Source: an uncultured Bacteroidota bacterium (lineage in GTDB: Bacteria; Bacteroidota; Bacteroidia; Flavobacteriales; Flavobacteriaceae). From it: 64,000 nucleotides of DNA. Position 1 is the first letter of the stretch. Each line of letters opens with the position of its first letter. A model generated the notes under the pieces. The model was not told the DNA's origin, did no database searches, and saw nothing but the letters and a program-made list of their open reading frames with translations. The stretch lies in assembly GCA_913060705.1 (NCBI GenBank), contig CAJXTX010000001.1, positions 1 through 64,000 on the forward strand, in the 5' to 3' direction. The translations under genes were made by a program, and so were the position numbers. Shown here piece after piece: positions 31,829 to 63,970 of this stretch.

Positions 31829-32860
31829 CTATAAATTGGATAAGAAGGTTAGGGTGTCGATTTGATCGGCATAAGTGTCTAGTGTTGGCTGCTGAGAATG
31901 TCCGAAAGGAATCCCGTAGTTGAAGGGACCCACAGCACATTGAATGTCCTCTGAATACGTTTCCGCCCATTTATCGGCCTCTAAACGGTCTTCGATCCAT
32001 TTATAGTGGAGTACACCAATAGGTGAATGTATCGTTTCGTCTTCTACCATTAGAATCGTTTCAGCATCTATAAATTCGGCTTGATTTAATAACAACAAAG
32101 AACGCTGATATTCTACATTGTTCGCATATTTATTGTGTTGCAAAATTTCACTACGAGCTGATAAAACCTTTGTAAGGGCTTTAAGTTCGAATCCTCGTTC
32201 AATAAGAAGTTGTGTGACATTGCGACAGCCTAATCCGAAGTAATCAAAAATATCGTTGGCTAAAAGCTCGAGTGAATGCGTATTAGTGTCTTTTAGCAGC
32301 AGAGCTACACTGTTTCTATTTTTTCGGATAAGGTGTGGATATTTTTTAAAGTAATAATCAAAGTATCTTCCTGAATTATTTGATCCTGTGGCGATAACGG
32401 CATCAAAATCCGCTCCAGGATCAAGTCGAATTTGTAGTGATTGAGTTGATGCACTATCCAAATGATGTATGTGCTCCACCATGAATCGAATCAAAGTGCT
32501 GTCTTTTTGTGAAGGTTTAATAAGGCAATGATGCCCCGAGAGATAGACACTTAACAGATCGTGAAAACCCACTAGGGGAATATTTCCCGCCATAATCAAT
32601 AAAATCCGCTTTTCTTGATGAGGATTTAAGGTATATGGAGTAATCCAATCGAGCAGCTTGTTGGAGGTTAGTTGTTGACTCCAATAGTTTAAAGCCTTAA
32701 GAATGTAATCTGATGTAAACCACTTATTCTCGGCCTCAGCAGTGCGAATAAGTGCCGCCAATGACTCATTTTCTGAAAGGGGAACCTGAAGCAATCGGCC
32801 TAGGGTTTTGCCCAATTGATCAAGCACAGTGATTCTCTTTTGTAAAGCGGTTTCTTGCAT
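31829..32860 (-). CDS. LuxC-like acyl-CoA reductase
   Basis: A 343-residue member of the acyl-CoA reductase (LuxC) family, related to aldehyde dehydrogenases. ILLIMAGNIPLVGFHDLLSVYLSGH, the SQKDSTLIRF nucleotide region, ATGSNNSGRYF and the active-site Cys context FGLGCRNVTQL are characteristic. It should reduce an acyl-CoA to the aldehyde with NADPH, but the physiological substrate is unknown. First gene of the operon with serC; it shares a palindromic promoter element with the divergent ferredoxin gene. Confidence 0.87.
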   Translation of the reverse strand: MQETALQKRITVLDQLGKTLGRLLQVPLSENESLAALIRTAEAENKWFTSDYILKALNYWSQQLTSNKLLDWITPYTLNPHQEKRILLIMAGNIPLVGFHDLLSVYLSGHHCLIKPSQKDSTLIRFMVEHIHHLDSASTQSLQIRLDPGADFDAVIATGSNNSGRYFDYYFKKYPHLIRKNRNSVALLLKDTNTHSLELLANDIFDYFGLGCRNVTQLLIERGFELKALTKVLSARSEILQHNKYANNVEYQRSLLLLNQAEFIDAETILMVEDETIHSPIGVLHYKWIEDRLEADKWAETYSEDIQCAVGPFNYGIPFGHSQQPTLDTYADQIDTLTFLSNL

Positions 32861-32899
32861 TTGTTTTTATCTGAGGTCAGAAGTACTTTTGCAAAAGTA
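32860..32899. promoter_or_regulatory. divergent promoter with shared palindromic -7 element
   Basis: TACTTTTGCAAAAGTA (32884-32899) is a perfect 16-bp palindrome holding an exact TAnnTTTG match on each strand. The plus-strand copy (32884-32891) has TTTG at 32860-32863 with a 20-base spacer and lies 18 bases before the ferredoxin ATG at 32910. The minus-strand copy (32899-32892) lies 31 bases before the acyl-CoA reductase ATG at 32860; its -33 element is not clear. Confidence 0.7.
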
Positions 32900-51899: not shown

Positions 51900-52715
51900 A
51901 TGGAACGATTACCGAAGTATGTATTACCAGGAATCTTAGGCTTCTTTGTCTTAATTATCCTGATTTCTAAATCTGCAATTACCATTGGCTCAGGTCAGGC
52001 GGGAGTATTGTATAGAACTTTTGGTGGTGGGGTAGTCACTGACGAGGGCCCCTTAGGAGAAGGGTTTCATATTGTTGCACCCTGGAACCGTGTCTTTGTT
52101 TACGAGGTACGTCAACAAGAGCTCTTTGAGAAGATGAAGGTGCTTTCTTCGAATGGACTTGAAATTCAAATTGATGCTTCTGCATGGTTTCAGCCAAAGT
52201 ACGAGACCCTAGGAAAGCTCCATCAAGAAAAGAGTGAACAATACGTTAATCGTATTTTACTGCCTGCTATTCGATCAGCAGCACGAAGTGTTGTTGGGCG
52301 CTATACTCCGGAACAACTTTATTCTTCTAAGCGAGATGCCATTCAACAAGAAATATTCACTGAAACTAAAATGATCGTTGACGATCAGTATATTCAATTG
52401 AATGAAATTTTGGTTAGGGATGTCACGCTACCTCCAACCATTCGTGAGGCCATTGAACGTAAGCTAAAACAAGAGCAGGCCGCACTGGAATACGAATTCC
52501 GTCTCGTAACAGCTGAGAAAGAGGCAGAACGTCAGCGTATTGAAGCGAAAGGTAAGGCTGACGCAAACCGTATTCTGAGTGCATCATTAACGGATAAAAT
52601 TTTGCAAGACAAGGGGATTGATGCTACCCTAAAGCTTTCTGAATCTCCAAATAGCAAAGTGGTTGTTGTAGGATCTGGGGATAGTGGTTTGCCTTTAATT
52701 CTTGGGAATAATTAA
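51900..52715 (+). CDS. prohibitin-like SPFH-domain membrane protein
   Basis: A 271-residue protein with an N-terminal membrane segment (about 7-28) and a prohibitin/SPFH domain (about 30-190). This includes GEGFHIVAPWNRVFVYEVRQQELFEKM and LLPAIRSAARSVVGRYTPEQLYSS. A coiled coil (about 195-230) rich in Glu, Arg and Lys follows. These proteins form large membrane assemblies and modulate membrane proteases such as FtsH in other bacteria; the partner here is unknown. It follows fabG by 9 bases, and the histidine attenuator comes next. Confidence 0.9.
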   Translation: MERLPKYVLPGILGFFVLIILISKSAITIGSGQAGVLYRTFGGGVVTDEGPLGEGFHIVAPWNRVFVYEVRQQELFEKMKVLSSNGLEIQIDASAWFQPKYETLGKLHQEKSEQYVNRILLPAIRSAARSVVGRYTPEQLYSSKRDAIQQEIFTETKMIVDDQYIQLNEILVRDVTLPPTIREAIERKLKQEQAALEYEFRLVTAEKEAERQRIEAKGKADANRILSASLTDKILQDKGIDATLKLSESPNSKVVVVGSGDSGLPLILGNN

Positions 52716-52717
52716 AT

Positions 52718-52747
52718 TTTGTAAGTCAAAATAGAAGCTTACTTTTG
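52718..52747 (+). promoter_or_regulatory. promoter of the histidine operon
   Basis: TTTG at 52718-52721, an 18-base spacer, and TACTTTTG at 52740-52747 form the best full Bacteroidota promoter in the window. The leader peptide ATG at 52752 begins 4 bases after the -7 element, so transcription would start at or very near that ATG. Confidence 0.8.
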
Positions 52748-52751
52748 CTTT

Positions 52752-52805
52752 ATGTTTTTAAATCATACACATCACCACGTTTTTTGCTCCGCTCAGACGA
52801 GTTAA
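52752..52805 (+). CDS. his operon leader peptide
   Basis: A 17-codon frame, MFLNHTHHHVFCSAQTS, with four His codons among residues 5-9 (H-T-H-H-H), placed between the promoter and the terminator of the histidine operon. This is the layout of a transcription attenuator: ribosomes slow at the His codons when charged tRNA-His is scarce. The first His codons lie in the left arm of a stem (52765-52777) that can pair with 52806-52818 immediately after the stop codon. It is too short for ordinary gene callers. Confidence 0.88.
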   Translation: MFLNHTHHHVFCSAQTS

Positions 52806-52818
52806 TGGTGTTGTATAT
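52765..52818 (+). promoter_or_regulatory. leader hairpin over the His codons (pause/anti-anti-terminator stem)
   Basis: ATACACATCACCA (52765-52777) can pair with TGGTGTTGTATAT (52806-52818) with 11 of 13 positions matched and a 28-base loop. The left arm covers the His codons; the right arm starts right after the leader stop codon. A ribosome stalled at His would open this stem. The pairing that would then block the terminator is not obvious to me. Confidence 0.6.
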
Positions 52819-52829
52819 TATATTCACTA

Positions 52830-52868
52830 AAGGCCCGTTTGAAGCATTCAATCGGGCCTTAATTTTTT
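52830..52868 (+). terminator. his attenuator terminator
   Basis: AAGGCCCG (52830-52837) pairs with CGGGCCTT (52853-52860). A T-T mismatch and an inner TTGAA/TTCAA stem with GCA loop extend it, and a T run follows (52863-52868). It ends 4 bases before the hisG ATG and so should stop transcription unless relieved. Confidence 0.92.
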
Positions 52869-52872
52869 ACCT

Positions 52873-53730
52873 ATGAGTGAGAGATTAAAAATCGCAATTC
52901 AAAAATCAGGGAGACTGAATGAAGACTCTCTTGCCTTATTGAAAGAGGCTGGCATCTCTTTGTTTAATGGAAAGGACCAGCTAAGAGTTGAGTCGCATAC
53001 GTACCCATTGGAGGTATACTACCTCAGAAACGGAGATATTCCTAATTATTTAAAAGATGGGGTGGTAGACCTGGCTATTATCGGAGAAAATCTTTTGGTG
53101 GAGAAAGGAGATCAAATACCAATCATTGAGCATCTTGGGTTTTCGAAGTGTCGCGTTTCTATTGCTGTCCCTAAAGGAAGTAGTTATACTTCAGTAAATG
53201 AGTTGGACGGTAAACGTATTGCTACCTCTTATCCTAATACAGTTAGAGGATTTCTAACTAAAAACGGTATCGATGCAGACATTCACGTAATCAATGGATC
53301 TGTTGAGATCGCTCCAAATATAGGTTTGTCAGATGCTATCTGTGATATTGTAAGCAGTGGAAGCACACTCTTTAAGAACAACTTAAAAGAGGTCGAAGTA
53401 TTACTAAAAAGCCAAGCCGTTCTTGCCTTGTCTCCGTTGTGTAAGGCAGAAGACCCTCGAATTGTAGACCTTCTTTTTAGACTTAGAGGTGTCTTACGGG
53501 CACGGGGACATAAATATGTACTTATGAACGTTCCAAAGGCCAATCTCGACGCTGTCGTAAAACTCCTTCCAGGAATGCGTAGTCCAAGTGTACTTCCTTT
53601 GGCCGACAAAGATTGGGTCTCAGTGCACACGGTAATTGAAGAAAAGACATTTTGGCAAGTCATTGAAAAGCTCAAGGAAAATGGCGCCGAAGGAATTTTG
53701 GTTAGCAGTATTGAAAAAATGTTCTTGTAA
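52873..53730 (+). CDS. hisG: ATP phosphoribosyltransferase, long form
   Basis: A 285-residue HisG, first enzyme of histidine synthesis, joining ATP and PRPP. Residues about 1-210 are the catalytic periplasmic-binding-like domains (LKIAIQKSGRLNEDS, DIVSSGSTLFKNNL as the PRPP loop region). The C-terminal 75 residues (PSVLPLADKDWVSVHTVIEE) are the regulatory HisG_C domain, so this is the long, histidine-inhibited form that needs no HisZ. Its stop overlaps the hisD-hisC start by one base. Confidence 0.97.
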   Translation: MSERLKIAIQKSGRLNEDSLALLKEAGISLFNGKDQLRVESHTYPLEVYYLRNGDIPNYLKDGVVDLAIIGENLLVEKGDQIPIIEHLGFSKCRVSIAVPKGSSYTSVNELDGKRIATSYPNTVRGFLTKNGIDADIHVINGSVEIAPNIGLSDAICDIVSSGSTLFKNNLKEVEVLLKSQAVLALSPLCKAEDPRIVDLLFRLRGVLRARGHKYVLMNVPKANLDAVVKLLPGMRSPSVLPLADKDWVSVHTVIEEKTFWQVIEKLKENGAEGILVSSIEKMFL

Positions 53731-63942: not shown

Positions 63943-63950
63943 TATTTTTG
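63943..63950 (+). promoter_or_regulatory. -7 promoter element for the gene at the right edge
   Basis: TATTTTTG is an exact TAnnTTTG match, 20 bases before the ATG at 63971. The divergent rpoD gene has no clear element in the 158-base intergenic region 63813-63970. Confidence 0.55.
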
Positions 63951-63970
63951 CAAAATTAGACCCCTTAAAA

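Follow-up and report, generated by a model that had tools for sequence, protein, structure and literature searches.

A putative ribosome-mediated attenuator of the his operon in Flavobacteriaceae, with a leader ORF predicted to start at or near the mRNA 5' end

Introduction

In the his attenuator of E. coli and Salmonella the leader, hisL, is a short ORF with a run of His codons that precedes alternative terminator and antiterminator structures ahead of the first his gene (PMC3896937), and in Sinorhizobium meliloti the trpL attenuator RNA (rnTrpL, encoding the peptide peTrpL) begins with the ATG of the leader ORF itself (PMC7298713). Closer to the locus studied here, in the same family and before the same gene, the work on F. 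psychrophilum lists hisG as one of the structured 5' elements that other Flavobacteriaceae genera also have, and reports hints of leader-peptide attenuation upstream of flavobacterial amino-acid operons (PMC9723704). We found no hairpin model, antiterminator or statement on the leader's 5' UTR in parts of the main text of that paper, whose supplements may hold more. An earlier note on the DNA analysed here had tied ribosome-mediated attenuation to Proteobacteria; the outline of a case for flavobacterial hisG and other amino-acid operons was already in print (PMC9723704). A search of the full-text literature, with most subscription journals and supplements outside its scope, returned no description of a leaderless his leader or of the antiterminator described below in Bacteroidota. 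Ribosome-mediated attenuation in Bacteroidetes/Chlorobi was reportedly predicted by comparative analysis by Vitreschak et al. in 2004.

The DNA considered here (the window) is a 64 kb stretch of a 1.6 Mb Flavobacteriaceae genome (G000), and the region of interest lies immediately before its hisG gene. We read this region as an attenuator of the classical type, in which ribosomes would control transcription of the his operon and whose leader ORF would be leaderless or nearly so, a reading drawn from sequence comparison and folding to which we give a probability of about 0.87.

Results

The locus and the relatives compared

The attenuator elements occupy the gap between an SPFH-like gene and hisG, the first gene of a his cluster that extends to 59857 (the his genes other than hisG were recognised from their translations). 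The promoter, 17-codon His leader, stem and terminator described in the earlier note are all present at the coordinates that it gave, and Table 1 lists them with the elements added here. The three closest named relatives by hisG are Flavobacteriaceae MAGs.

Table 1. Coordinates of the features at the hisG locus (positions in the window).
Feature	Position	Strand	Description and basis
SPFH-like gene	ends 52715		36 nt upstream of leader ATG; name from translation
Putative sigma-A promoter, Bacteroidota type	52718..52747	+	TTTG 52718-52721, N18, TACTTTTG 52740-52747
Predicted transcription start	52752	+	A of leader ATG, 0-nt 5' UTR; predicted from box position
Leader ORF MFLNHTHHHVFCSAQTS	52752..52805	+	17 codons, stop TAA (52803-52805)
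1:2 hairpin	52765..52818	+	His-codon region 52765-52777 x post-stop 52806-52818, bulged; sequesters TGGTG
Antiterminator 5' strand (arm 2)	52791..52803	+	GCTCAGACG + GTT, at leader ORF end
TGGTG	52806..52810	+	common to 1:2 hairpin and inner antiterminator stem (x CACTA 52825-52829)
Antiterminator 3' strand (arm 3)	52832..52845	+	5' part of terminator; GGC 52832-52834, CGTTTG 52836-52841, AGC 52843-52845
Intrinsic terminator (3:4 hairpin + T-run)	52830..52868	+	folding, family comparison
hisG	52873..53730	+	first gene of his cluster; ORF list, HisG homology

We compared 190 hisG upstream regions (from 80 named GTDB species, 30 loci and 80 further stretches), of which six were exact duplicates, leaving 184 distinct ones; 13 of the 123 hisG-bearing family genomes lie outside this comparison. 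Exclusion of L038 and L173, whose ORFs were mis-assigned by the script, left 178 loci, and removal of near-duplicates gave the 147 non-redundant family rows of alignment A1. A second, cross-family alignment (A2) has 36 rows picked by eye for divergence: 15 come from other families and 3 from the same genus, one is L081, and the remaining 17 are divergent members of the family. A2 omits L291, L296, L326 and L223, which the script could not delimit, L325, which was delimited but has an insert that splits its arm 2, and L312, L314 and L321 as near-duplicates.

A conserved His leader

The window leader carries four His codons (at 52764, 52770, 52773 and 52776), three of them consecutive. The earlier note had proposed comparison with relatives, and the His-rich frame is indeed kept there, with covarying pairings (below): at least three clustered His codons stand upstream of hisG in 179 of the 184 distinct regions, so that an element before hisG is more than chance. 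Four of the other regions (L036, L043, L099 and L173) have only two His codons, adjacent or nearly so, and the L131 leader runs off the contig edge. The leader of L038 is itself sound (MRNNNTHHHSDTSPQAG). In the family, one group of leader peptides follows the pattern M[RK]NNNTHHHFYTCAQAR and another the pattern MTFIQLHHHHFHTCTQAS.

These conserved clusters also bear on whether the region might be a simple constitutive terminator, or a riboswitch such as a T-box that binds a ligand or tRNA, the His-rich ORF being incidental in either case. A structured 5' element does precede an amino-acid operon here, and T-boxes control his genes in Firmicutes and Actinobacteria (PMC9413887), but an incidental ORF sits badly with the 179/184 count, and the window has no Rfam match at the gathering level. 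At that threshold Rfam release 15 gave 0 matches in the 64 kb, and when matches up to E 10 were admitted the region 52600-53000 gave eight chance-level ones, the best with E 1.3, all far below gathering scores and none of them a T-box. We consider such an element extremely improbable.

The terminator and the hairpin that competes with the antiterminator

RNA folding reproduces both the stem 52765-52777 with 52806-52818 and the terminator that the earlier note had drawn, and the leader-region fold (-29.2 kcal/mol) is well below that of shuffled sequences (-17.6 ± 2.8; z -4.2, with 0 of 200 shuffles as low). The terminator is built of two stems, 52830-52837 x 52853-52860 and 52839-52843 x 52847-52851, after which AATTTTTT runs to 52868. 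It was found in 179 of 180 relatives, the sole miss being the mis-read L173. Across A1 (147 rows) 99.2% of the cells in its pairing are paired, and 21 cells are changed on both sides (0/500 shuffles), in 4 pairs (3/500), the shuffles ignoring the relatedness of the rows. The 1:2 duplex has a z of -2.82 in the window and a family mean of -2.72 when the control is a letter-shuffled post-stop sequence, and reaches p<0.05 in 58.5% of the 147 family rows. Two loci with related leaders of the MYNLIHHTH... type, L030 and L128, have a wholly different terminator sequence, and their antiterminator strand seems to have been altered along with it.

An antiterminator formed by the end of the leader ORF

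The earlier note had seen no obvious antiterminator and had suggested that the mechanism may differ from the usual one. The first statement proved wrong, since the last codons of the leader (52791-52799) pair with the 5' arm of the terminator (52836-52845) and covariation supports this pairing, and the second finds no support, since the window antiterminator (-17.6 kcal/mol in a fold of the transcript as it stands before the 3' terminator arm is made) has bases in common with the 1:2 hairpin, as in the classical layout. In the family arm 2 is about [N]CUCAAGCGAG and its partner in the 5' terminator arm is CCCGUUUGAG. When the 3' terminator arm is omitted, the outer stem of arm 2 with arm 3 is present in the minimum-energy fold of all 147 family segments.

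Standard pairs make up 93.8% of the antiterminator cells in A1, as against 17-52% when the partners are slid by 1-3 columns, and 90.7% in A2, as against 20-50%. Cells changed on both sides number 15 in A1 (0/500 shuffles), in 4 pairs (20/500), and 17 in A2 (0/500), again in 4 pairs (12/500); these values are to be read with shuffles that take no account of relatedness and with arms 2 and 3 that are largely near-invariant. For the inner stem, the spacer of the window is not clearly better than a letter-shuffled spacer (z -0.77), and the family mean z is -1.67. Since TGGTG is also the base of the His-codon hairpin, the 1:2, 2:3 and 3:4 hairpins exclude one another in the classical way. A topologically different arrangement, a pseudoknot in which arm 2 would be present only in the loop of the His hairpin, was considered and rejected, since folds of truncated transcripts show TGGTG to be shared.

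The peptide itself could also act, its conserved tail (AQ-A-R/S) stalling the ribosome or working in trans, as described for peTrpL of S. meliloti. The tail residues are strongly conserved, pN/pS of the leader is 0.48 (codons 2-13 of 64 leaders of 17 codons, by a simple single-difference codon count), and a trans-acting peptide made from a leaderless leader has a precedent (PMC7298713). The tail codons, however, coincide with the antiterminator strand. In five leaders (L046, L060, L073, L135 and L177) a CAG or CAA codon has become TAG or TAA, so that a stop codon lies inside arm 2 and the tail is lost, yet the RNA pairing is retained through a G-U pair; and in G150, G153 and G154, three genomes of the same genus as the window, arm 2 is placed just past the leader stop. 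It is thus the RNA pairing that is kept and not the peptide tail, and we regard action of the peptide itself as very unlikely.

How the switch would operate

A His leader ORF, a terminator, an antiterminator exclusive with it, a competing 1:2 hairpin and a fitting ribosome geometry, the sequence-level marks of an amino-acid attenuator, are all found at this locus, and conservation, codon content, folding and covariation support the histidine attenuator that the earlier note had proposed. As to the geometry, TCAAGCG begins 14 nt after the aligned His codon in 143 of the 147 family rows. With a ribosome footprint of the generally known size, which underlies all spacing and coverage figures given here, this distance means that a ribosome on the last His codon would leave arm 2 free and that one at the stop codon would cover arm 2 and TGGTG.

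The attenuator is envisaged to work as follows. Transcription would start at the A of the leader ATG, and a ribosome would initiate at the 5' end of the mRNA. When charged His-tRNA is ample, the ribosome would reach the stop codon and cover about 52786-52816, including arm 2 and TGGTG, and the terminator would form. When His-tRNA is short, the ribosome would stall on the His codons with its front edge near 52786-52789, masking the His-codon arm of the 1:2 hairpin and leaving arm 2, which begins at 52791, just free; arm 2 could then capture the newly made 5' arm of the terminator, so that the polymerase would continue into hisG. If the leader is not translated at all, the 1:2 hairpin would take up TGGTG and so favour termination, which is the least supported step of the scheme.

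Three folding results count against parts of this scheme. The finished terminator with its flank (-18.8 kcal/mol) has a slight edge in stability over the antiterminator (-17.6), and when arm 2 is free and the whole terminator has been transcribed, the terminator wins the fold; readthrough would accordingly have to rest on the order of synthesis. Moreover, when the polymerase has only just cleared arm 3 and no ribosome is present, folding favours the antiterminator (-17.7) over the 1:2 hairpin, so that equilibrium folding does not support termination as the default without translation.

The promoter box and the predicted transcription start

In F. johnsoniae the TAHHTTTG promoter box spans -12 to -5 and transcription starts 4 or 5 nt further on (PMC6847099), and the -7 box of F. 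psychrophilum likewise occupies -12 to -5 (PMC9723704). Below, d is the number of nt between the -7 box and the leader ATG, and an exact box is TAnnTTTG. At the window CTTT separates TACTTTTG from the ATG, so d is 4, and with the box position of the two flavobacteria transcription is predicted to begin at the A of the ATG, or at the U of the AUG if the box-to-start distance were 5 nt. The his leader ORF is thus probably leaderless, with its start codon at or beside the mRNA 5' end. The near-leaderless leader of the earlier note is upheld in this form, as a prediction from the 4-nt spacing and from the frequency of short spacings among relatives.

The promoter pattern is not significant taken alone: TTTG-N16-20-TAHHTTTG occurs three times in the window where 1.69 occurrences are expected, and TAHHTTTG is found 32 times against 40 expected. 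A generic promoter and terminator scan of the window reported neither a promoter nor a terminator before hisG; it is blind to this kind of promoter because it seeks E. coli-type hexamers, and to this terminator because its stem rule, judging from its description, seems to bar the internal T-T mismatch. Fifteen exact boxes in the window lie at most 70 nt from an ORF of at least 80 codons (ORFs taken by length alone), and only 2 of these have d of 11 or less, the other 13 standing at 16 nt or more; in this window-wide scan, then, short spacing does not look general. The palindrome TACTTTTGCAAAAGTA at 32884-32899 consists of two abutting exact -7 boxes, one on each strand. It lies between a ferredoxin-like gene (32910, + strand) and a gene at 31829-32860 (- strand), an arrangement that suggests a bidirectional promoter with overlapping start sites. 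A second such abutting pair, TATTTTTG on the + strand and TAATTTTG on the - strand, is found at 63943-63958, near the window end.

Among 11 genomes of the same genus, eight have an exact -7 box before the leader ATG, with d=4 in five and d=8 in three. In the other three (G150, G153 and G154; loci L221, L220 and L222) the leader is shorter, for example MSISHIHHIIT, and begins 5 nt past the stop codon of the SPFH-like gene; no -7 box is recognisable before it in G150 and G154, nor in G153 where its partly masked upstream bases are readable. The attenuator may be operon-internal in these genomes, whose HisG proteins are only 59-61% identical to that of the window although they are placed in the same genus.

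Two apparent start-spacing classes in the family

We measured d over the range 3-24 nt in the 178 family leaders. Exactly one exact box is present in 67 of them, and the distances fall into two groups, 41 at d 4-11 (mode 7, with 18 cases) and 26 at d 17-24 (mode 18), with none of the 67 at d 12-16. When one mismatch is allowed, all but one of the 178 leaders have a candidate box, for which the chance expectation is about 2-3 of 178 per distance, and many have two overlapping candidates 7 nt apart, so that the split depends on how ties are settled: 103 near and 74 far if ties go toward the ATG, 79 and 98 if they are settled at random, and 61 and 116 if they go away from the ATG. By an independent scoring 85 leaders counted as near, 39 fell at 12-24 and 54 lay elsewhere. 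The window, having one exact box, is unaffected by the tie rule. These look like two classes with predicted 5' UTRs of 0-7 nt and 13-20 nt, the share of each being uncertain.

These distances also help to weigh a variant in which the attenuator is the same but is not leaderless, its transcript coming from upstream (from another promoter, or by readthrough out of the operon to which the SPFH-like gene belongs) with an ordinary 5' UTR, and the box being accidental or minor. The short gap after the SPFH-like gene, within which the scan reports no terminator, would allow this, as would the leaders placed 5 nt past the SPFH-like stop without a recognisable box in G150, G154 and the readable part of G153, and the chance frequency of the promoter pattern taken alone. 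An accidental box would hardly have been kept at d=4 or d=8 in 8 of 11 same-genus genomes, however, nor would 41 of 67 exact-box leaders be expected at d 4-11 with 18 at a single distance where chance gives about 2-3 of 178 even with one mismatch allowed. An upstream transcript seems unlikely to us, and a start at or beside the leader ATG remains the preferred reading.

The trp leader and other operons

In the same genome, outside the window (G000:C22, L200), a trp leader, MKRKNVSQLWWSPLLSNR, lies 6 nt behind TATATTTG upstream of trpE and is followed by a terminator. A scan of the same genus, without G151, found such a leader at d 5-8 in 10 genomes, three of them with one box mismatch, and found none at the second trpE locus of G154 (L212). 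In the family a Trp leader followed by a terminator stands at trpE in 29 of the 30 loci examined. In 13 of them d is at most 11 and in the other 16 it is 12-21, each group including one leader with a box mismatch; two of the 29 have d=12, and so the gap seen among the exact his boxes is not clean for trp. The sequence surrounding the trp leader stop, TCGTGA or GTGATGA, has a counterpart in the arm or loop of the terminator (TCACGA, TCATCAC), an observation made by eye that one fold supports.

Of 25 genomes, 20 have his and trp in the same distance class (near for both in 9, far for both in 11) and 5 are discordant (Fisher p 0.005, phylogeny ignored). This association is only suggestive, since phylogeny is uncorrected and near calls depend on the tie rule, in at least four cases for his (G001, G011, G018 and G050). 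Before pheA, ilvD, homoserine dehydrogenase and leuA-type genes of the same genus, a scan that required an exact box at d 3-10 and a terminator printed three ORFs, all judged spurious by eye, so that the near-leaderless layout is seen in this genus for his and trp only.

The element beyond the family

Several families, both within the order and in the class Bacteroidia, contain strong matches to a covariance model of the element (R1). At 22 of 27 loci taken from the stronger matches outside the family a His leader is followed by a HisG-like start, as judged from the first residues, and at the other five (L294, L299, L300, L322 and L324) no leader was found by our search pattern. The overall R1 tallies, 99 of 196 genomes of the order (E<=0.01) and 127 of 198 of the class (E<=0.05), were set aside because they are inflated by a terminator-like background near E 0.001.

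Discussion

The window element resembles hisL of E. coli and Salmonella in its plan, but its leader ATG is predicted to lie at the mRNA 5' end, it has four His codons where hisL has seven, its antiterminator strand is contained in the last part of the ORF, and it matches no Rfam family. It shares with trpL of S. meliloti an attenuator RNA that starts at the leader ATG; that system, however, is a Trp leader of an alphaproteobacterium whose 5' end is stated (PMC7298713), whereas in the window it is predicted. The regulatory mechanism itself is textbook, and the near-leaderless start appears to be a reasonable prediction with precedent elsewhere. What is gained is a full hairpin model, supported by covariation, of a Flavobacteriaceae his attenuator that also occurs in several other families of Bacteroidia and is unmatched in Rfam.

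The two start-spacing classes are the one aspect that we single out as deserving experiment. The model predicts in which lineages translation of the leader peptide would begin at the mRNA 5' end. With somewhat less than even confidence, we propose that the his and trp leaders are leaderless mini-mRNAs in a substantial share of Flavobacteriaceae, in which the first ribosome would load without a 5' UTR as the RNA 5' end leaves the polymerase, and would in this way time transcription and translation to one another in a phylum whose translation does not depend on Shine-Dalgarno sequences. In other lineages the same element would have a 5' UTR of 10-20 nt, and lineages seem to switch between these modes with few intermediates, perhaps for both operons together.

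Of the mRNAs of 890 F. psychrophilum CDSs, 5.5% are leaderless (PMC9723704), and 87% of the predicted transcripts of F. johnsoniae have a leader longer than 10 nt (PMC6847099). Since leaderless mRNAs are a small minority in both flavobacteria, a leaderless ORF that is both conserved and regulated, as the his leader may be, would provide a clean natural test of initiation that uses neither Shine-Dalgarno pairing nor a 5' UTR.
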